Below, piece by piece: positions 9,311 through 62,644 of a stretch of 64,000 nt of DNA (positions are counted from its first letter, which is position 1; every line of letters starts with the position of its first letter). This DNA is from Acanthococcus lagerstroemiae (lineage: Eukaryota; Arthropoda; Insecta; Hemiptera; Eriococcidae), in NCBI GenBank assembly GCA_031841125.1, contig CM063110.1:21385626-21449625 (forward strand), read 5' to 3'. The notes under the pieces were generated by a model. The model was not told the DNA's origin and ran no database searches. It saw only the letters and a program-made list of their open reading frames with translations. A program made the translations under genes and the position numbers.

Positions 9311-10640
9311 TCCGTTTCGCGCGGAATTCAAGCTCCATCTGAAAGATCTCGTGCCGTTGCGAAACACACTGAAACTATGGGTGAAAAATTTCGATGCTAG
9401 AGGCTCTGTGTCGAAAAGAAAGCCAAAAAGATTATTCCCAATCGTCAGAATTCCAGAAAACCTTGATTGTGTACGCGCTGTGTTATTGAAAAGTCCGGTA
9501 AGGTCTGGAAGGAAACATGCGTTGGCTTCTTCATACCCAAACTGAAGCGGAGAAGGCGTCTCAGTCGTACATGGTTTCAACAGGATGGCGCCACATGCCA
9601 CACCACCACCAAAACAATCACCCTGCTGCGAAACTCGTTTGGCAATCCGATATCATCTCGCGCAACTCCGGTTTTCCCTGGTCGTCGCGTTCGCCCGATC
9701 TTTCCAGCTGCGACTATTTCTTGGGGGGATTTTTGAAGTCTTGTGTGTATGCCAACAAGCTGCATATGTGGCAGTTTCTATACAAAACGGGGTAACTTTG
9801 TCGATTCGACGAATTTTGAGTAAGGCATAGTACGTAATAGAGGAATGAATACCTGTTTCAAGGAGCTATCGGCGAGATCTGTAGCGTTTTTCTTTGCGGA
9901 GATATAAGCGGTCAAAGATGAGTGTAACAAGAATGCGCAAAAACACGCGTTTTGAGAAAAACGCGTCTAAAGTTAGACACACCTTTTTCTCCCACTCCTT
10001 CAAGTGGCCGTAACTCGCCACGGAGTCACATTACCAGCCTCGACGAGGATTTGTTGGAAAGGTAATTTTTCGCTCTTCTACGTGGTAACATCGGATTTAT
10101 TCGTGAGCTCCGAAAAACCGCGAAGAAGCGACGCAGACATTCGCATTCTATTTTCATTCTCTTTCATAATTCTCTTTCTCTCTCTCCCTCTTCTCTCTCG
10201 CACCCGTAAATTTAGTCTCTTCGTTATTGCGATGTTTTTTCTATAGAAATCGGCCAAATCTCAAAATTGATTGTTTCAACCAAAAAAATTTGTTTTTCTT
10301 TTTTCGCATTTTCTGAGACTTCAATCGATCAACAAAGTTACCCCTTTTTATAGAAACTACCACATATTATGTTGGAAGCTTTACGTGTGAATATTCGAAA
10401 TAAAATCACCGCAATTTCGCCCAAAACTTTTAAAAAAAGGATGAAAATTTTGTAAAACGCCTTGAAAACAGTATCGATAATACTGGCCGCCATTTGAACT
10501 GTATTGTTTTTAAAAAATAAATAAATATTAATTTTCAACCGTCTAGTCTCTCATTTCAATTTGCGTAAAGCCATAAACATCAGTAGTTCCAGTGTTACCG
10601 CGAAAAGAAATGTGTCAGATTTCTCTGCGCCACCCTGTAC
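9311..10640 (+). pseudogene. Mariner-like transposase pseudogene, split by a MITE
   Basis: The N-terminal helix-turn-helix region is at about 9311-9541 (LRNTLKLWVKNFDARGSVS, RIPENLDCVRAVLLKSP). The catalytic region follows at about 9560-9765 in shifting frames (WFQQDGATCHTTT, then SPDLSSCDYFLGG), which carries the second catalytic aspartate. The C-terminus resumes after the MITE at about 10371-10515 (LEALRVNIRNKI, then after a frameshift RLENSIDNTGRHLN) and ends with a stop. The segment carrying the first catalytic Asp is missing. CACCCTGTAC at 10631-10640 probably marks the 3' end; the left end was not found. The family is recalled as the Tc1/mariner-type transposase common in arthropods. 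Confidence 0.82.
9768..10363 (+). mobile_element. GTGGCAG-family MITE, copy A (596 bp)
   Basis: Imperfect inverted ends of about 40 bp begin GTGGCAGTTTCTAT and contain GGGTAACTTTGT. ATAT flanks both ends (9764-9767 and 10364-10367). The element interrupts the mariner reading frame between the catalytic region and the C-terminus. Copies B (36687-37290, 604 bp) and C (61609-62644, 604 bp once its inner insertion is removed) share the whole length, so it is a defined family. No coding potential seen. Confidence 0.88.
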
Positions 10641-16380: not shown

Positions 16381-16605
16381 ACGTGGCGCCTACTAGTTTG
16401 AAAATTACTCGGCAAAGATCTTCCGCAGAAACCCACCCACCTTTTCTTCACTGCCCTCCTCCTAACATACGTGATTGTTTAGCTTTCCTGCTTCTTTATA
16501 ATTTTTTCTGAACACTGCAAACCTCCCACTCGCTTGACCACCCACCCACCGACCACAAACGTTCTCGGCATCTACCGAAAACTTGACCAATGGTGGGGGC
16601 CACTG
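16381..16605. mobile_element. hAT-like MITE (about 225 bp)
   Basis: The left end ACGTGGCGCC and right end GGGGGCCACTG approximate the inverted repeats of the copy at 22403-22621. Both copies share C-rich interior sequence (CCTCCTAAC, GACCACCCACC-type motifs). No matching 8-bp duplication was found. Its right end directly abuts the bacterial-like miaB fragment. Confidence 0.5.
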
Positions 16606-16833
16606 CTGCAAGTTCTCACAAATCAGGCTGAATGTCGTATTCACTCTCTGCGGACCAACAACAATATCCACAAATGGAGCCCTTCTGAACACTTCTTCTC
16701 CCTCTGCTTGCGCTACACACCCAGCCACCACTATAGTCATTTCTTTTCGTGACGAATGAATCTTCCCGAGCTCAGAATAAAGCTTTTCTGCTGCCTTCTC
16801 TCTAATGTGACAAGTAATACAACAAACTAGGTT
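16606..16833 (-). pseudogene. miaB: Fragment of a bacterial-type tRNA methylthiotransferase (MiaB)
   Basis: MiaB is a radical-SAM enzyme that adds a methylthio group to i6A37 of tRNAs. The minus-strand frame open from 16860 carries a block of about 75 residues matching the N-terminal MTTase domain. It includes [19 protein letters not shown], then [18 protein letters not shown], and VDIVVGPQ. The cysteines of TCHIREK and AGCVAQ are two of the three that bind the auxiliary iron-sulfur cluster. The GCQMN cysteine and the radical-SAM CxxxCxxC domain are missing, so it is a non-functional fragment of a protein usually near 440 residues. There are no stops in the homologous part. The wording ([19 protein letters not shown]) is that of alphaproteobacteria such as Wolbachia or Rickettsia. 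The animal homologue CDK5RAP1 differs at these places (CSIREKAE). Flanks are host repeats, so I infer a nuclear insertion of endosymbiont DNA. Confidence 0.85.
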
Positions 16834-16839
16834 CATTTT

Positions 16840-18440
16840 CAACTTTCTCGAATTTTTCAAATTTTGAGATTTTCCATTTTCAAAATTGTTGTTGTAACCC
16901 TTCGATCATTCTTCAAAAATTAATACAATGTTCCACGAAGCTTGATCAATTTTCGCACACGTTCTTTTTTAAAGAATTATAATTTCGAATTAAGTTTAAT
17001 TTCCATTTCCGACAAATTTACCTATTTTCTCCCAAGATTTTTATTACAATCCTTTGATTATTTTGTTCCCTAGCTGACCCCGAATCTTACGCAAATTTGG
17101 TATAATAATTGCTTGAAGACTTAAAATTAATATTAATCAGGGTTCAATACATCATTTTACTGAATTATTCGAATTTCAAAATATTTTCCCGTTCCAAAAT
17201 TTTGTCTGAACTTATTGATAATTTTCCCAGGGTGATTGCAATTTCCCTCGAATCAGGTACAATTTTTCTTTTTGGTTTGATTGGAAAAGTCTGATATAGA
17301 ATTAATTTAAATTTTCAGATTTATCGAATTTCTTTTCTCCGAAATCGTTCTCATTACTCTTTAATAACTTTTTCAGAATGTTATAACAGTTTTTCATGAA
17401 TCTTACTCAGTTTTGTATACAAATCTTTTCGACTCATCAATTTCCAATTTTGTCAACTTTTTCGAATTTTGTTCTTCAAAATTTTGTATTATAACGCTTG
17501 GATTGTTTTTTCCTATGTGACAGTTTTCCACATACCTCACTAAAATGTCGTGTACAACTTTTCTGAAGACCTTATTGAATCAAGTTCAATTTTCTATGTT
17601 ATCGAATTACTCAAATTTCAAAATATTTTCTTCTTCCAAAATCTTGTCTGAACATATTGTATAGCTTTCTCAAGATGATTGCCATTCTCCACGAATCAAG
17701 CTGAATTTCCCAAATCGGGTTGCTTGAAAACTCTCGATATCAAATCAATTAAAATTGTTCTAATTTATTGAATTTGCTCGAATCTTGTCGTAGTGTGTCC
17801 AAGAGGTAACGAGTTCGCTTCGCAATCCTCGCGTCTCGTGTTCGAGTCCACCAACACCGAAGAGCTACTAATGATATTCGAATACTCCCCACTAACATCC
17901 TATAGTGAACACAGCGACCACAGTATCAGTTAAGATGGAAATATAGCGCGTCCTGTAACTCCCGCCAGTTCACACGAACAAGACATGACAAATTGCAAGG
18001 CGTGTAACCACCAGATCAGAAAGATTGGTACTGTGCGTGTGCAGGACAGCTTACTCAACTTCGTGAAACTTGTGGCTAGTAAACGAACTGCGGCTGCACA
18101 CTCTTCGGTAACGAGAAGAAAAATTCTAACGCACTAAAACCGAGGGGGAGGCAGCAACGGCAAACTAACCCGACTAACCTGTCCAAGAGAATCGTTCGTC
18201 AGGAACCGCAACCGCCATCAACATCTGGCATCGGATACGGCGCCTGAAGAAGTTCGAATTTCGAGTTTCTTTTCTCAAAAATCGTTGTCATAACTCTCCT
18301 ATCATTTTTCCAAAATGTGACTACAATTTTTCATGACTCTTCTTCAATTTTCACGTACGAGTTTTTTGAAGAGTTATGATCCCGAATTAAATTCGACTTC
18401 TAATTTTGTCCAATTTTTCGTTTCCTTATTTCCTTTTATT
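16840..18440 (+). repeat. Degenerate satellite-like array, unit about 140-160 bp
   Basis: A recurring sentence is visible: TTGAAGACT, a GATATTGAATCAAGTTCAAT core, TATCGAATTATTCGAATTTC, then CAAAATTTTGTCTGAAC. Equivalent points fall near 16969, 17113, 17270, 17428, 17565 and 17725, and again near 18370 after an interrupting SINE. Another diverged unit is at about 18770-18900. The copies are very diverged, so the array is old. It has no coding signal. Confidence 0.7.
17788..18250 (+). mobile_element. tRNA-derived SINE inside the satellite array
   Basis: The head resembles a tRNA gene, with an A-box-like TGTCCAAGAGG near 17796 and a B-box-like GTGTTCGAGTCC near 17840. A GC-richer body of about 400 bp of different composition follows. 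Array sequence stands on both sides, which sets the limits. The body has no match to the other SINEs here, so this is a separate family. Flanking CGAATCTTG and CGAATTTCG are similar but may be array sequence, so the duplication is unproven. Confidence 0.65.
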
Positions 18441-19449
18441 GTAATTGGCTTCGAATAGGCGGACAGAAAGAACATAAAATTAGTACATATTCACGGCTAT
18501 AATGATAGTATTAATTTGCACTCCATGTAAGTCGTCACCTATTCCACTTACTGTAAAGCATGAACCTCCATCACTCGCTTCTAACGTTTTCTTGTGCCAG
18601 CTGTGGTCCTCCATCTGGACCCCATATAATAAAATTTCGTCGCACTACCTGGTGGCCCATTTCCTCTTCCTGTCCAATGGTACATATAAAGTACTCGTTC
18701 GGCGCCATTTCTCCCTCCCCCTCTGGATATATAGTGTAAGCTATATTTTTAGTACCAATTCTACATGTGTGAAATCAATTTTACAGAATCTCACTCAAAT
18801 GACATATACGAGTTGTTTGAAGACTCTCGATATTGAATCAAGTTCAATATTTAATTTTATCGAATTATTCGAATTTCAGGATTTTTTATTTCTTTCAACT
18901 TCGAGTCACTCGTTGATACCGAAACCAACATATGAATCGTGTGTTGAGAAGGCTTTCGATCGACATCTACCCACAACAATACTAGATGCTATACGGAGCC
19001 TTGGCCTGTTGGAAAATATCCTACACGTTGTACATAATTTTCTTAGACAGCATTTCTTTCGTGTGCAAATAGGTCAAACACTTTCTACCTCAAGGTTCCA
19101 GGAAACAGGCACACCTCAAGGATTCGTATTAAGCCCAGTCTTTTTCATCTAGGCGTTAAATTCCATCTCGGAAGTCCTACTCCGTACCATCCAGCACCTA
19201 TGCAGATGATCTTGTTGCGTTTTTACTACACAAGAATCCAGTCACAGCTGCCCAACAACTACAGAACACCATAAACTGTCTTACTCAATGGGGAGCTAAA
19301 TGTTTACCGACCATAACAAAGGTGACGAATTTTATTAGAAAGCGGATCCAAATAAACTTGCAACCAATCTTCTATAACAAACCTCTAGATCAAGTAAATG
19401 AGACCACTCTGCTTGGATTGAACTTCGACAGCAAACTTAGACGGACCTC

Positions 19450-22402: not shown

Positions 22403-22621
22403 CAGTGGCACCTTCTTGTTTACAAAATCACCCGGAGAAACCTTCCAGCGAGATCCACTCAGCCTTTGTTCTTTCTCCCCCCCCCTCCCAAGAAAAAAAT
22501 ACTTTTCAGCTTTTATGGTTCTTTGTAATTGTTTGTGGACAATGCCAACCTCCTAACCTCCTCCCCAATTCACACGTCACCCACCTACCCACATCAGAAG
22601 TTCCCACGGTGGGCGCCACTG
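22403..22621. mobile_element. hAT-like MITE (219 bp)
   Basis: The start CAGTGGCACC and end GGGCGCCACTG are inverted ends. The interior is C-rich and resembles 16381-16605. The flanking octamers do not match, so the duplication has decayed or the limits are slightly off. Confidence 0.5.
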
Positions 22622-24921: not shown

Positions 24922-25440
24922 CTACTGACTGACTGGACTGACTGACTGGACTAACTGGACTGACTGGACTGACTGACTGCTGACTGACTGGACTGACTGA
25001 CTGGACTGACTGACTGGACTGACTGACTGACTGGACTGACTGACTGGACTGACTGACTGACTGGACTGACTGACTGAACTGACTGACTCAACACTTGATT
25101 TGCCTGCAAGCACTACGCTCGGCTAATGCATCATCTTGCAGACAAGTATGCAACCACAGAAGAGCATTTTCATGGCTGCTTCGCGGACTGCGTCGACATG
25201 AGAATGTCATCGTCCAGCGAACGTAGCGCCCAAAAAATGAGCGCGCCAAAAAATATAGAGCGCAACGTGCACTGCAGAGTGTAGCGGACAACGACATTCT
25301 CATGTTGCGCAGTCCGCGAAGCAGACATGAAAATACTCTCCCGTGGTTGCAGACTCGTGATGCACTAGCAGAGTGCTTGCAGGCTGGTACAAGGAACGTG
25401 ATGCTTGCATGCGAAAACAGTTTCTTCTCAGATGACTCTA
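24560..25440 (+). mobile_element. Composite foldback-type repeat, copy 2
   Basis: The order is unique modules (GGAAAAACGTTAC-type blocks, TTTCCATGGAAAT, CTTTACTTTGGCACA), an AAT microsatellite, a GACT array, then an imperfect hairpin. In the hairpin the arm at about 25104-25215 pairs with about 25290-25405. TGCTTCGCGGACTGCG on the left faces CGCAGTCCGCGAAGCA on the right, and GCACTACGCTCGGCTAATGC faces GCACTAGCAGAGTGCTTGC. The same order occurs reversed at 58985-59670, and the first modules also occur at 5570-7131. No coding sequence recognised. Confidence 0.75.
24874..25085 (+). repeat. AAT microsatellite followed by a GACT/GGACT array
   Basis: About 14 AAT units (24878-24919) are followed by about 160 bp of GACTGACTGGACT units (24923-25085). 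The minus-strand frame across it (a V/S/Q repeat) is a low-complexity artefact. Confidence 0.9.
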
Positions 25441-27360: not shown

Positions 27361-27745
27361 ACTTCGTCACTCCGTCACTCACTGAGTCAGTGATTCACTC
27401 AGTCACTCGCTTATTTATTGAGTTATTCACTCAGTTACTCCGTCACTCACTCAATGAGTCAGTGATTCACTCAGTCACTCGCTTACTCATTTAGTGATTC
27501 ACCAAGTTACTCACTCACTTACTCAGTGATTCAGTGATTCACTCACTTACTTAGTTATTCACTCATTCTGTAATGTAGTTATTCATTCGCTTCCTCACTC
27601 CGCCACTCACTCAATAAGTCAGTGATTCACTCAGTCACACAGTCATTCGCTTACTTACTCAGTGATTCACTCAGTCATTCAACCACTACCTTAGTGACTC
27701 ACTCAATCACTCAGTCACTCGCTCACGCATTCAGTGACTTACTAA
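27361..27745 (+). repeat. Degenerate CACTCAGT-type tandem array
   Basis: About 385 bp of CACTCAGT, CACTCGCTTA and GTGATTCACTCA-like units, strongly diverged. It stops just before the large palindrome starting at 27768. The composition recalls the TCAG arrays of the foldback family, but the unit order differs. Confidence 0.85.
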
Positions 27746-27767: not shown

Positions 27768-30700
27768 GTACTGAATGTCCTTAGACGATCAAAAAGGATT
27801 AGTCTTCTATCTGTCTTCGATAATTCAATGTAGCCTCTACAGCCAAGAATAGTACCGGCCTGTCTTATGTAAGTTCACTCGTTGGCTATATGAGATTGTC
27901 TCAGTGCCTACCTATCTTAGATACGTCCGCCTTTTGACCGTATAGAATTTTTGATGACCAAGTGGGAACATAACTTTTGGAAGAAATATTGCGAACAGGG
28001 CTGTATAGCGACAGTATCATTGATTCGGTCCAACATTTTCCTACTGCATGACAACATAAATGAACGCCTGTGGTAAGTCCGCGACAAGTCTTTCAAGAGT
28101 TATCTAGGATGAATGAAGTCACCATTTGGCTTCGATTTTTGTCTATAGAGAGCTAATATTACATTACATCCATTAATTCCTATCTCAACAAGCTTATGTT
28201 TGTCGTATTTTTTAAAATAAAAATTTCAGTTGATCTAGCCAGTCAATGTACACAAAATATAATTTAATGTACCAGGCTTTTGCGTCTATCATTGTCCGGG
28301 TGGCAAGCCGTTGCTTACAAACTTGTAATAAGTTGCCTAACATTCACTTGCAAAAATGTCTATTTAACCTGAGACACCCTGTTTTTAAGTGATTAAGAAA
28401 ATAATCTATCAGCTTTTCCACATGGATATCAATATCCAGGGTGTTTTTTTTTGCAGTGACCCACCCTTCCACTTGGTAAATAGGCAACCAACCCAGACAA
28501 TATGTAGATATGTTTGCATTCTTACTTTTGAAGGGGCTGAGTTATGGTCAAATTTTGAAAAGTTTTCTATCTTTGAAATTTTTTTTCTCACAACTGGAGA
28601 TAAGCAGAGAAATAGTACCATTAGGTAATAGTAGAGGTCAGTTGTGGTAACCACAGAAAAAAAATGGTCGGAATCTGTTCGACAGGGTGTTCATAAAATC
28701 AATTGTAATACAAATTATATCAGAAGATTTTCACATTTTTTCAATGTGCCGTAAAATAAGCCCTCTTAAGCCACTGTTTTTTTGTTGTTTCTTTCGCAAT
28801 AGATTGTACATTAAATTTCCCATAAAAACAGTCCTTAGCAATTTTCTTGTATCTGGATTAAAACTGTTCAAAATGGAGTTCAAGATATCCCCGTTAAGAA
28901 TTATTATTACTTTTTGACACAGATGCACACACCTTATGAAGATAATAATCATCTTCTTCAGCTATTTTACTACTTTACAGAGTTACATCGTTTATGGGGC
29001 TTATTCACCTCCTTCCTATCATCTATTTACCCCATATTTGGAATTGAGGCCCATGAAATGGGGGGGGGGAGGAGGTTCTAGTATTTTGTAAAGCTCAATA
29101 TGGGTATCCAATAACTGGTTCCAAAGGTCGCTAAATACAGTTTTGGTAACATTTTGGCCATACGCCCCGAACTGTGGCGCATACTAATGGGAAGGAGGTG
29201 CAAGATGAAGGTTGTGGTAACCACAAAGAAAAAAAAATTAAAGTTCATGGACAGTGGTTGAACATGATGTTCATAAAATTAATTTTACTTAGTACGAGTA
29301 CAAAATTGTATTGGAAAATGTTGGTATCATTTCTATTTACTGTAACACCCGGGGGGAGGGGGAGGGTTAGTTATTAATTTAGTGATGAAATGTTATTTAT
29401 GTACTCTTAGATGAAAGAATCTAGGCCCAGCAAATTGCTGTTGACATGGATAGAAGAACCAGATAGGTCATGGTCTTATAGTTATGAATACATTGTGAAA
29501 AAAGTTCCCCCCCCCCATATTCCAGTTGATTGTGATCACACGGAAGAATTACAAAATTATTGTTAACCAACCAAATTAACGTGAAAATTTCATATATTAT
29601 TAGCTGAATGTTTTGGTTTTATTCTTGTTCTTTTCCCTTACAATTTGTTAGTTATCTTGTTTTGCAAAGAATTTTGTGAACTGAAATTTTAAAAATACTT
29701 CTAATTTCAATCATTTTTTAACCTCAATTCCAAATATGGGGTAAATAGATGAAAGGAAGGAGGTGAATAAGCCCCATAAACGATGTAACACTATGATGTA
29801 GTAAAATAACTGAAGAAGATTATTATTATCTTCATAAGGTGTGTGCATCTGTGTTAAAAAGTAATAATTCTTAACGCGGAAATCTTGAACTCCATTTTGA
29901 ACAGTTTTAATCCAGATACAAGAAAATTGCTAATGACCTTTTTTATGAGAAATTTAATGTACAATCTATTGCAAATAAAAAACCGTAGCTTACGCGGGCG
30001 AGGTTTACAGTAAATTGAAAAAATGTGAAAATCATTTAATGTAATTTGTATTAAAATTGATTTAATGAACACCCTGTCGAACCGATTCCGACCACTTATT
30101 TTCTGTGGTTACCACAACTGACCTCTACTATTACCTACTGGTACCATTTTTCTGTTCATCTCCAGTCGTGAGAAAAAAAAATTTCAAAGATAGACAACTT
30201 TTCAAAATGTGACTATAACTTGCCCCTTCAAAAGTAAGAATGCAAACATATCTACATATTGTCTGGGTTGGTTGCCTATTTACCAAGTGGAAGGGTGGGT
30301 CACTGCAAAAATTACACCCTGAATATATTGATATCTATGTGGAAAAGCTGATAGATTATTTCCTTAATCACCTGAAAACAGGGTGTCTCAGGTTAAATAG
30401 ACATCACTGCAACTGAATGTTAGGCAACTTATTACAAGTTTGTGAGTAACGGCTTGCCATGTAGATAATGATAGACGCAAAGCCTGGTATATTAAATCAT
30501 ATTTTGCGTACATTGACTGCCTAGATCAACTGAAATTTTCATTTAGAAAAATACGACAGACATAAGCGGGTTGAGATAGGAATTAATGGATGTAATGTAA
30601 TATTAGCTCTCCATAGACAAAAATCGAAGCCAAATGGTGACTTCATTCATCCTAGATAATCTTGAAAGACTTGTCGCGGACTTACCACAGGCGTTCATTT

Positions 30701-30989
30701 ACGTTGTCATGCAGTAGGAAAATGTTGGACCGAATCAATGATACTGTCGCTATACAGCACTGTTTGTAATATTTCTTCCAAAAGTTATGTTCCCACTTAG
30801 TCATCAAAAATTCTATACAGTCAAAGAAGGGCGTATCTAAGATAGGTAGGCATTGAGACAATCTCATATAGCCAACGAGTGAACTTACATAAGACAGGCC
30901 GGTACTAGTCTTGGCTGTAGAGGCTACATTGAATTATCGAAGACAGATAGAAGACTAATCCTTTTTGATCGTCTAAGGACATTCAGTAC
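27768..30989. mobile_element. Large palindrome, arms of about 1.27 kb
   Basis: The left arm 27768-29049 (1,282 bp) is the near-complete reverse complement of the right arm 29722-30989 (1,268 bp), around a 672-bp spacer. The outer ends are GTACTGAATGTCCTTAGACG and its reverse complement at 30970-30989. Inner ends are ...GGAATTGAGG and CCTCAATTCC.... Differences are scattered substitutions and small indels, so the arms are related but aged. Each arm contains GACACCCTG/CAGGGTGT-type motifs. A TGTGGTAACCACA palindrome recurs in both arms and, diverged, in the spacer near 29212-29224. No 8-bp duplication is visible outside. It may be a DNA transposon with very long inverted repeats, or an inverted duplication. 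The spacer holds a short open frame at 29411-29566. Confidence 0.88.
29411..29566 (+). other. Candidate coding remnant in the palindrome spacer (51 codons)
   Basis: The ATG at 29411 opens 51 codons ending TAA at 29564-29566. The translation is protein-like rather than low-complexity (KLLLTWIEEPDRSWSYSYEY, then CDHTEELQNYC). Immediately before it is a T-rich tract ending CTCTTAG, which could be a splice acceptor, so this may be an exon. A run of ten C in the frame is a likely indel site. I do not recognise the family. If the palindrome is a transposon, this would be the only trace of its protein. Confidence 0.3.
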
Positions 30990-36359: not shown

Positions 36360-38019
36360 GTGTCTCTATCAAAAGGGCCCACTTTTTCTATTACCGTTTT
36401 GGCAGTACAGCCATTTTTAGGGCCGGCTACAAGTAGCCGAACCTATTGCAATCGCTTTTTTTTTCCTTCTCCAGCTCAGTTCAGTTCACAGTTCAGTTTC
36501 CATGGAAATTATTTATTTTCGGACATATAAAACTTTTTATATAGAAGTATATGGGAGTCTTGTGCTATTATCGACGATATTACTGCAGTCTGCGTCCGTG
36601 TTGTAGCGGCGCGACAAATTTCCAATTTCCACAGAAATTATTTAATCGGGATTATCCGTTAGGATTAGGTCGATCATTGATTATTAGTGGCAGTTTCTAT
36701 AACAAGGGGGTAACTTTGTCGATCCGACGAATTTTAAGTTATGGATAGTACGTAATAAAGGAATGAATTCCTGTTCCAAGGAGCTATCGGCGAAATCTGT
36801 AGCGTTTTTCTTTGCGGAGATACAAGCGGCCAAAAATGAGTGTAACATGAACGCGCGAAAATACGTTTTCGAGAAAAACGTGTCTAAAGTTAGACACACC
36901 TTTTTCTCCCACTCCTTCAAGCGGCCGTAACTCGCCACGGTGTCACGTTACCGGCCTCGACGAGGGGTTGTTGGAAAGGTAATTTTTCGCTCTTCTACGT
37001 GGCAACAATTCAGAACATCGGATTTATTCGTGAGCTCCGAAAAACCGCGAAGAAGCGACGCAGACATTTGCATTCTTTTCTCATTCTCTTTTGTAATTCT
37101 CTTTCTCTCTCTCCCTCTTCTCTTTCACACCCGTAAATTTTGTCTCTTCGTTATTACGATGTTTTTTCTACAGAAATCGACCAAAATCTCAAAATTGATT
37201 TTTTCACCAAAAAATTTTGTTTTTCTTTTTTCGCGTTTTCTGAGACATCGATCAATCGACAAAGTTACCCCTTTTTATAGAAACTGCCACATTTATTCAT
37301 TCTTCCGCGATTTTTTTTTTTATTATTTCTTGTCGATAGTCAAGATACCTGCTTTCTTGACTGTCGAGAGTCAAGATGCGTGCCTTTTTACCGACCCTCC
37401 TCGAGTAACAAAGTTACTTGTTTAAATTTCGACCAAAAAATCGATTTCAGTGTTTTTAATGTTTAGGATGGTAGGAATCCTATTCTTTCAGTTTCACTTT
37501 ATCGTTACTTGAGATCTCATTAGTATGAAATGCGTAAAAACAGAATGGGCCTGGGCCTTTGGTTCCTCTACAAGTTAGTCCATGGTGCTTGATCTTTACA
37601 CATTTTATAACCTGTATTTTGGGTAGGTATACCTGCCAGGCTTATTACGATACAAAAAACGAGAACAAAACAAAGAAAAACCAATTTCATGTAAAAGGGC
37701 CCACTTTGTCGGCTTTTATTTTTTAGCTTTTGACACCAAAAAATGCTGCCAAAAAATCTTTATAAAGGTTCCAGTGTTTCAAAGAAATGTAAGTACACTC
37801 ATATCTACAAAAACATCCTTTTTATTCTTGATCACTTTGCTAACTTTCAAACGCGTTTTTCCTCAAAATACAAGTTCTCCAAACCTCAACTTCAAAAAAA
37901 AAAAATCGTTCTGTAACGCTACAGAGCTGATTGAGGTCTCATACAAAAGGTAATTTTGTCTAGTATAACCCCCTTCCCTTAACTTCGTACCGATAAAATG
38001 GGCCCTTTTGACAGAGACG
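36360..38019. mobile_element. Element with TCAAAAGGGCCCA inverted ends (about 1.66 kb)
   Basis: The left end (TGTCTCTATCAAAAGGGCCC, 36361 onward) and right end (GGGCCCTTTTGACAGAGACG, to about 38020) are inverted repeats. Similarity extends inward to an ATTACCG/ACCGATA segment. A third partial end (AAAGGGCCCACTTTGTCGG, 37697) lies inside in the left-end orientation, so this may be two overlapping copies. The GTGGCAG-family MITE copy B is nested at 36687-37290. No transposase recognised and no duplication visible. Confidence 0.6.
36687..37290 (+). mobile_element. GTGGCAG-family MITE, copy B (604 bp)
   Basis: A full-length match to copy A at 9768-10363, same orientation. It has the end motif GTGGCAGTTTCTAT, the shared core CTTCAAGCGGCCGTAACTCG, the polypyrimidine block CTCTTTCTCTCTCTCCCTC, and the right end AAACTGCCAC. 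The flanks are ATTA and ATTT, a weak match to the ATAT seen around copies A and C. Confidence 0.9.
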
Positions 38020-61068: not shown

Positions 61069-61608
61069 TATTAGGACGATGTCGCTACGGTAACGCCACA
61101 TGAAGCTGCCGAAAAACTTGAGTCATTTCCAGTACGGAAAAGCGGCACAGTTATACCTACAAGATATGACTAATTTGAGCAAGAGAAAATGACCGCGAAA
61201 GAATTTTCCTTGATTACATCTGTAGGATATTCCAGCGTTCGTCACGCAAAAAAGTTCTTTAGTGAAACCTAGACAGACATGGTGATCGAACAAATCTTGA
61301 TGCGATAACTGAAAGTTTCTGGCGGTATAACAAATGGTCGAGGTAGGTACATCTGAAAGTGCTCGATCTCAATGAATCCAAGGAAGTATAAAGTTGCTCG
61401 GAATGACGCTGACAGCTGCACTATGTTCGGGAAGTCGTGAGGCTGTGAGAAAGTGGGCAGTTGACAACTGTTGTTGGTGAAGACATCGACCTCCTTATTT
61501 TAGTAATGGCCTTGGCAAATCCACACATCAAGGAGCTATTATTTATAAAATCCAGTAGAGAAAAGTGGCTCAGAAAATATTCTCTAGCTTGGACAATCAA
61601 ATACATAT
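61069..61608. other. No feature recognised
   Basis: Non-coding sequence up to the left end of MITE copy C. Confidence 0.4.
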
Positions 61609-62644
61609 GTGGCAGTTTCTATAAAAAGGGGCAACTTTGTCGATCGATCGAAGTCTCAGAAAACGCGAAAAAAGAAAAACAAAATCTTTTGATCGAAAAA
61701 ATCAATTTTGAGATTCTGGTTGATTTCTACAGAAAAAACATCGCAATAACGAAAAGACAACATTTATGCGCATAAGAGAGAAGATGGAGAGAGACAAAGG
61801 GAATCATGAAAGAGGACAGTGTTGTCAATTAAAGCAAGTCGCCAATATTGAAACATAAAAATCGCCACTTTTCCCCACTGCAATTTTCCTCGTCCACTGA
61901 CTACAATGAGACCTGGAAAAAGAACCTAATTTACATGTAGTTTTAGGTCTTTTTTCTCAGAACAGTTGTGCTGGCATAAATTTCAGAGATCTGGAGAGCC
62001 AAGAGTCACTTCAACAATTTGAGACCAGAAAAAGTACCTTATTGAAGAAATATGATGTTTTATGAACTATTTTAGAGATCCAGAGAGCTGAGAGCCGTTG
62101 ATTTCTTTGAGATTGAAAAGGAACTCCACATTACAATTAGGCGCCACTAAAATCGCCACTCGCCTTCACCCAGTTTCAGTCACCCAGCAGGGTTCAAAAA
62201 TCGCCACTTTGGCGACTTTTCTCGCCACTTGGCAACACTGAAAGAGGATGAGAAAAGAATGCGAATGTCAGCATTCGCTTCTTCGTGGTTTTTCGGAGCT
62301 TACAAATAAATCCGATGTTCTGAAATGTTGCCACGTAGAAGAGCGAAAAATTACCTTTCCAACAAGCCCTCGTCAAGGCTGGTAACGTGATCCCGCGGTG
62401 AGTTATGGCCGCTTGACGGAGTGAGGGAAAAAGGGGTGTCTAACTTTAAACGCATTTTTCCCGAAAACGTGTTTTCGCGCGTTCTCGTTACACTCATCTT
62501 TGACCGCTTGTATCTCCGGAACAAAAAACACTACAAATCTCGCCGATAGCTCGTTGGAATGGGCATTCATTCCTCTATTATGTACTGTCCTACTCAAAAT
62601 TCGTCGGATCAACAAAGTTACCCCTTTTTTATAGAAACTGCCAC
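61609..62644 (-). mobile_element. GTGGCAG-family MITE, copy C, split by a hAT MITE
   Basis: A full-length member in reverse orientation relative to copies A and B. ATAT flanks both sides (61605-61608 and 62645-62648). The nested element at 61817-62240 interrupts it; without that element and one duplication copy the length is 604 bp, equal to copy B. The end reads GTGGCAGTTTCTATAAAAAG. Confidence 0.92.
61817..62240. mobile_element. hAT-type MITE (424 bp) nested in MITE copy C
   Basis: CAGTGTTGTCAA and TTGGCAACACTG are inverted ends with one mismatch. The 8-bp duplication AAAGAGGA is perfect (61809-61816 and 62241-62248). The interior repeats AAATCGCCACT and GCGACTTTTCTCGCCACTT text. It belongs with the CAGTGTTGCC element at 41791-42629. 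Confidence 0.95.

Follow-up and report, generated by a model that had tools for sequence, protein, structure and literature searches.

A probable nuclear insert of Wolbachia miaB within degenerate satellite DNA

A short piece of the Wolbachia gene miaB has very probably been joined into host nuclear DNA, within a degenerate satellite. The piece measures about 171 bp, out of a gene of roughly 440 codons, and was found in a window of 64,000 nucleotides, by which we mean the whole stretch of DNA that was analyzed. In the sequence as given, both ends of the fragment join host-type repeats (Table 1). On the right this is satellite DNA, and on the left it is a weak satellite match followed by a hAT-like end. 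The nuclear insert is probably a neutral, non-functional scrap and would be inherited through the germline.

Table 1. Position of the miaB fragment, the open frame that crosses it and the neighboring repeats in the window.
Feature	Position	Strand	Remarks
miaB fragment	16646..16816	-	57 codons of Wolbachia-type miaB; N-terminal MTTase (UPF0004) domain, TCHIREK...VVGPQ
Open frame, 147 codons	16462..16905	-	ATG at 16836; continues past both fragment ends into repeats
Left satellite remnant, 36 bp	16607..16642	+	model positions 101-137; weak by itself
Degenerate ~160-bp satellite array	16824..17791	+	about six units; model match starts at monomer position 2 (16825)
Partial satellite units	18253-18440 and 18768-18906	+	match to the satellite model
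hAT-like (MITE-type) element end	16383..16605		terminal CAGTGGCCCCCACC on minus strand

The identity of the fragment is established by protein family profiles. The minus-strand ORF matches the NCBIfam profiles TIGR00089 (MiaB/RimO; E = 8.4e-17) and TIGR01574 (MiaB; E = 3.7e-16) as well as Pfam PF00919 (E = 9.5e-14). The MiaB-family profile scores are far above chance level, and together the three profiles bear out the MTTase domain of MiaB that the original prediction had read on this strand. Solved structures match the ORF weakly, the best of them (E = 0.0017) being a MiaB-type enzyme. At the DNA level, the blastn homology to miaB has sharp ends, with a left limit at 16646 and a right limit at 16815-16819 depending on the relative. 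An apparent upstream NLV and a tblastn extension to residue 74 were considered as homology past the two ends and rejected, as they fall outside the DNA match, in satellite-like sequence. The length had been put at about 75 codons. This proved too long: DNA homology covers 57 codons, and the remainder of the proposed interval (16606..16833) is not miaB. A few bases at 16643-16645 and 16817-16823 were assigned to neither the fragment nor its flanks.

Judged from its sequence, the fragment originates from Wolbachia. Relatives were gathered in a scan at one genome per prokaryote species, which gave 463 pattern matches, 305 of them encoding relatives, and 80 were kept. The original prediction had named the alphaproteobacterial form (Rickettsiales such as Wolbachia) and proposed a search against Rickettsiales together with a tree. 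The search agrees with this assignment, as the top relative among the 80 kept is Wolbachia wOc with 80% protein identity. By blastn against the same 80 loci, which hold miaB neighborhoods only, the closest DNA belongs to a MAG labeled Rickettsiales (L002; 85% over 176 columns), followed by Wolbachia wOc (L001; 84%) and the Wolbachia of Fragariocoptes setiger (83%). DNA identity is 77-85% for the nine Wolbachia-type loci and about 71-73% over similar lengths for Mesenet, Ehrlichia and Anaplasma. A few more distant alphaproteobacteria show comparable DNA identity, but over about 45-100 bases only. The phage collection returned six records, all below 60% identity, and the viral contigs returned seven pattern matches with one locus at 56% identity.

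Protein comparison points to the same donor. With the MiaB of L002 as query, 8000 candidates were scored, the best 120 were listed and the first 60 were aligned with the fragment. The closest among these 60 is P0031, a partial protein that represents 11 sequences and whose name begins "Wolbachia endo..."; it is identical to the fragment at 55 of 57 residues. Moreover, the fragment and P0031 have in common a two-codon deletion in a length-variable loop that is found in no other of the 60 aligned sequences. Because P0031 carries it too, the deletion is bacterial in origin. Several mite-type and other sequences have deletions in the same loop that differ from that of the fragment. The two residues that distinguish P0031 from the fragment are the junction codon and an I-to-M change, and the M residue is also present in P0029 (Callosobruchus chinensis) and P0123. 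The tree, run on DNA with 14 rows, strongly supports one of its 11 inner branches, the Ehrlichia pair, and does not settle the place of the fragment. Hence, the label "Wolbachia-type" rests on identity and the two-codon deletion.

The satellite was described with a 161-column monomer model built from the first six right-hand units, so that the scores of these units follow by construction. The left remnant scores 5.1 bits, with an E value of 0.22 for the window as a whole, and an unrelated site at 28548 scores equally; with a single monomer as query, the E value of the remnant is 9.4. Evaluated as a 60-mer, the left match reaches 3.8 bits. None of 2000 dinucleotide shuffles scores as high, nor does any of the 3076 other plus-strand 60-mers of the window, the best of which comes close at 3.7 bits. 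The position of the left match coincides exactly with the junction to the insert. Furthermore, the satellite phase is compatible across the insert, with about 25 monomer positions missing. Satellite on the left side is supported but weaker.

Further to the left lies the end of a repeat element that we presume to be hAT-like from its terminal motif. An old second copy of this element has its end at 22621: positions 16383-16526 and 22405-22553 form a 150-column block with 70% identity (E = 3e-7), and a terminal 14-mer, CAGTGGC[C/G]CCCACC, is common to the ends at 16605 and 22621 with one mismatch. The other end of the element and an 8-bp target duplication were sought to the left, and neither was clear. 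The fragment had been placed between a hAT-like MITE end and an old satellite. The right-hand part of this description stands, with about six units of ~160 bp, whereas on the left the immediate neighbor is the 36-bp satellite match and the hAT-like end follows beyond it at 16605.

Third codon positions hold most of the differences between the fragment and Wolbachia, the same pattern as between Wolbachia strains. Counted by codon position, there are 2, 2 and 20 differences from L002 and 7, 5 and 21 from L013, the most divergent-looking locus. Four bases of the fragment are private, that is, absent from nine relatives, and three of them lie in the length-variable loop, whose bases can be aligned in more than one way. 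Outside the loop, private bases amount to 1 of 156 in the fragment and to 0 to 8 in the nine Wolbachia-type relatives, suggesting little decay after transfer. A Poisson estimate from the one private base places a rough upper bound on post-transfer divergence near 3%, a coarse value that draws on nine relatives only. Most of the divergence would have arisen in bacteria under selection, with little or none added since the transfer. The insert is young relative to the surrounding repeats. So little decay points to a recent event, and the insert may be polymorphic or species-specific. A recent transfer and a short neutral fragment, the two options given in the original prediction, both fit these data.

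We propose that ~171 bp of Wolbachia miaB entered an already degenerate ~160-bp satellite, taking the place of about 25 bp within a single monomer. The bacterial DNA scrap would most likely have been captured as filler during end-joining repair of a germline double-strand break. This route is suggested by analogy, since insertions of mitochondrial DNA have been attributed to end joining in break repair (PMC3798261).

A different origin would be a chimera of the library or assembly, in which DNA of a Wolbachia symbiont sequenced along with the host was misjoined into a host satellite contig. We regard this as unlikely. Such an error requires two joins in the order host-Wolbachia-host around a bacterial piece of merely ~171 bp, and the satellite units to either side (weakly supported on the left) would have to end up in compatible register, with only about 25 monomer positions lost. 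These features weigh against a chimera even though the fragment has nearly no private changes, as would be seen in a chimera, the site lies within repeats, where assembly is error-prone, and P0031-type strains are present in public data. The fragment might also be of animal origin, since CDK5RAP1 is a relative of MiaB, or stem from a transposon protein. Either source seems barely credible given the level of DNA identity to the nine Wolbachia-type loci, the sharp ends of this homology and the best protein match, which is the Wolbachia protein P0031 in collections that were bacterial or mixed.

The remaining alternative is a domesticated or newborn chimeric gene expressed in the host, encoded by the 147-codon frame or by the 124 codons that start at the ATG at 16836. 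The frame is open over both junctions, and the earlier statement that about 75 codons have no internal stop agrees with this. When each flank was shuffled 5000 times with dinucleotides preserved, 10.6% and 5.1% of the shuffles lacked a stop, or about 0.5% for both flanks jointly, which is mildly against pure chance. In addition, nuclear Wolbachia fragments are reported to be transcribed in nematodes (PMC2882956). However, the frame ranks 11th in length among the 198 stop-to-stop ORFs of at least 70 aa in the window, and a search with all 147 residues identified no relative of the flanking peptides among the best 120 hits, four of which were inspected; the top query coverage was 76%. Two of the three listed hits with at least 73% coverage, P0160 and P0203, look like ordinary bacterial MiaB. 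The best match to the MiaB profile spans positions 37-140 of 437. A functional MiaB can be rejected, as the fragment is truncated and lacks the gene start with the GCQMN segment of relatives and the whole radical-SAM part; it therefore cannot make the tRNA modification enzyme, and the same losses count against a chimeric gene. Expression as a domesticated or newborn gene is thus very improbable. The more specific version, a transcribed 124-codon newborn gene whose start comes from the satellite, whose core is the Wolbachia MTTase piece and whose tail stems from a transposon, would likewise come as a great surprise. The 147-codon frame is probably fortuitous.

A nuclear insert of Wolbachia miaB would add to an already known class of small Wolbachia transfers. 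Nuclear Wolbachia insertions (NUWTs) occur in arthropods as well as nematodes; most are described as neutrally evolving fossils (PMC5541319), in which Wolbachia DNA is joined to host DNA (PMC5541319, PMC9894559). The present case resembles NUWTs in this joining and differs from them in that it consists of one very short, nearly undecayed piece in satellite DNA, known from assembled sequence alone. One nematode case involves 2-methylthioadenine synthase, a name formerly given to an enzyme of the MiaB family. In the Wolbachia-free filarial nematodes Acanthocheilonema viteae and Onchocerca flexuosa, fragments wholly inside contigs are reported to average 146 and 183 bp (PMC2882956), the same size class as the ~171 bp found here. 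One of the nematode fragments is described in the same report as a 2-methylthioadenine synthase pseudogene with a frameshift, from which transcripts were detected and for which a 321-bp probe was 83% identical to wBm (PMC2882956). It probably represents the same gene as the present fragment. As reported, the copy is frameshifted and transcribed and its host is a nematode, whereas the fragment described here is nearly undecayed.

A Wolbachia-type MiaB is also present in a beetle record, that of P0029 from Callosobruchus chinensis, which has the M residue in common with the fragment. This protein is 364 aa long, compared with 57 codons here, and is without the two-codon deletion. It is missing an internal segment relative to other Wolbachia MiaB proteins and possibly represents a larger nuclear miaB copy in the beetle. 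C. chinensis reportedly carries a Wolbachia insertion. If real, the present insert would be a further sign that the host lineage has been infected by Wolbachia, and would illustrate on a small scale how bacterial sequence can be captured in a satellite. It leaves the overall understanding of Wolbachia-to-animal transfer as it was.

Ten neighboring ORFs matched no NCBIfam family at a threshold of 0.01, and Rfam and tRNA scans gave no hits. Two of ten ORFs scanned have weak matches to the reverse transcriptase family PF00078, below the cut-off of Pfam. These matches, together with the satellites and the dispersed old repeats, indicate a eukaryotic, animal-like genome, and the host is probably an insect. 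A search with a reverse-transcriptase ORF gave one hit from 22 candidates. A large inverted repeat occupies 27768-30989. The two arms (27768-29049 and 29722-30989), each just under 1.3 kb long, contain segments that are 86-100% complementary and flank a 672-base center; the repeat is probably a foldback or long-terminal-inverted-repeat element. A dispersed repeat family has three copies, at 9786-10365, 36704-37292 and, inverted, at 61605-62590, with listed pieces that are 80-94% alike. Finally, short-unit tandem arrays of the ACTG type and the TCACTCAG type are located at 24924-25088 and 27367-27739.
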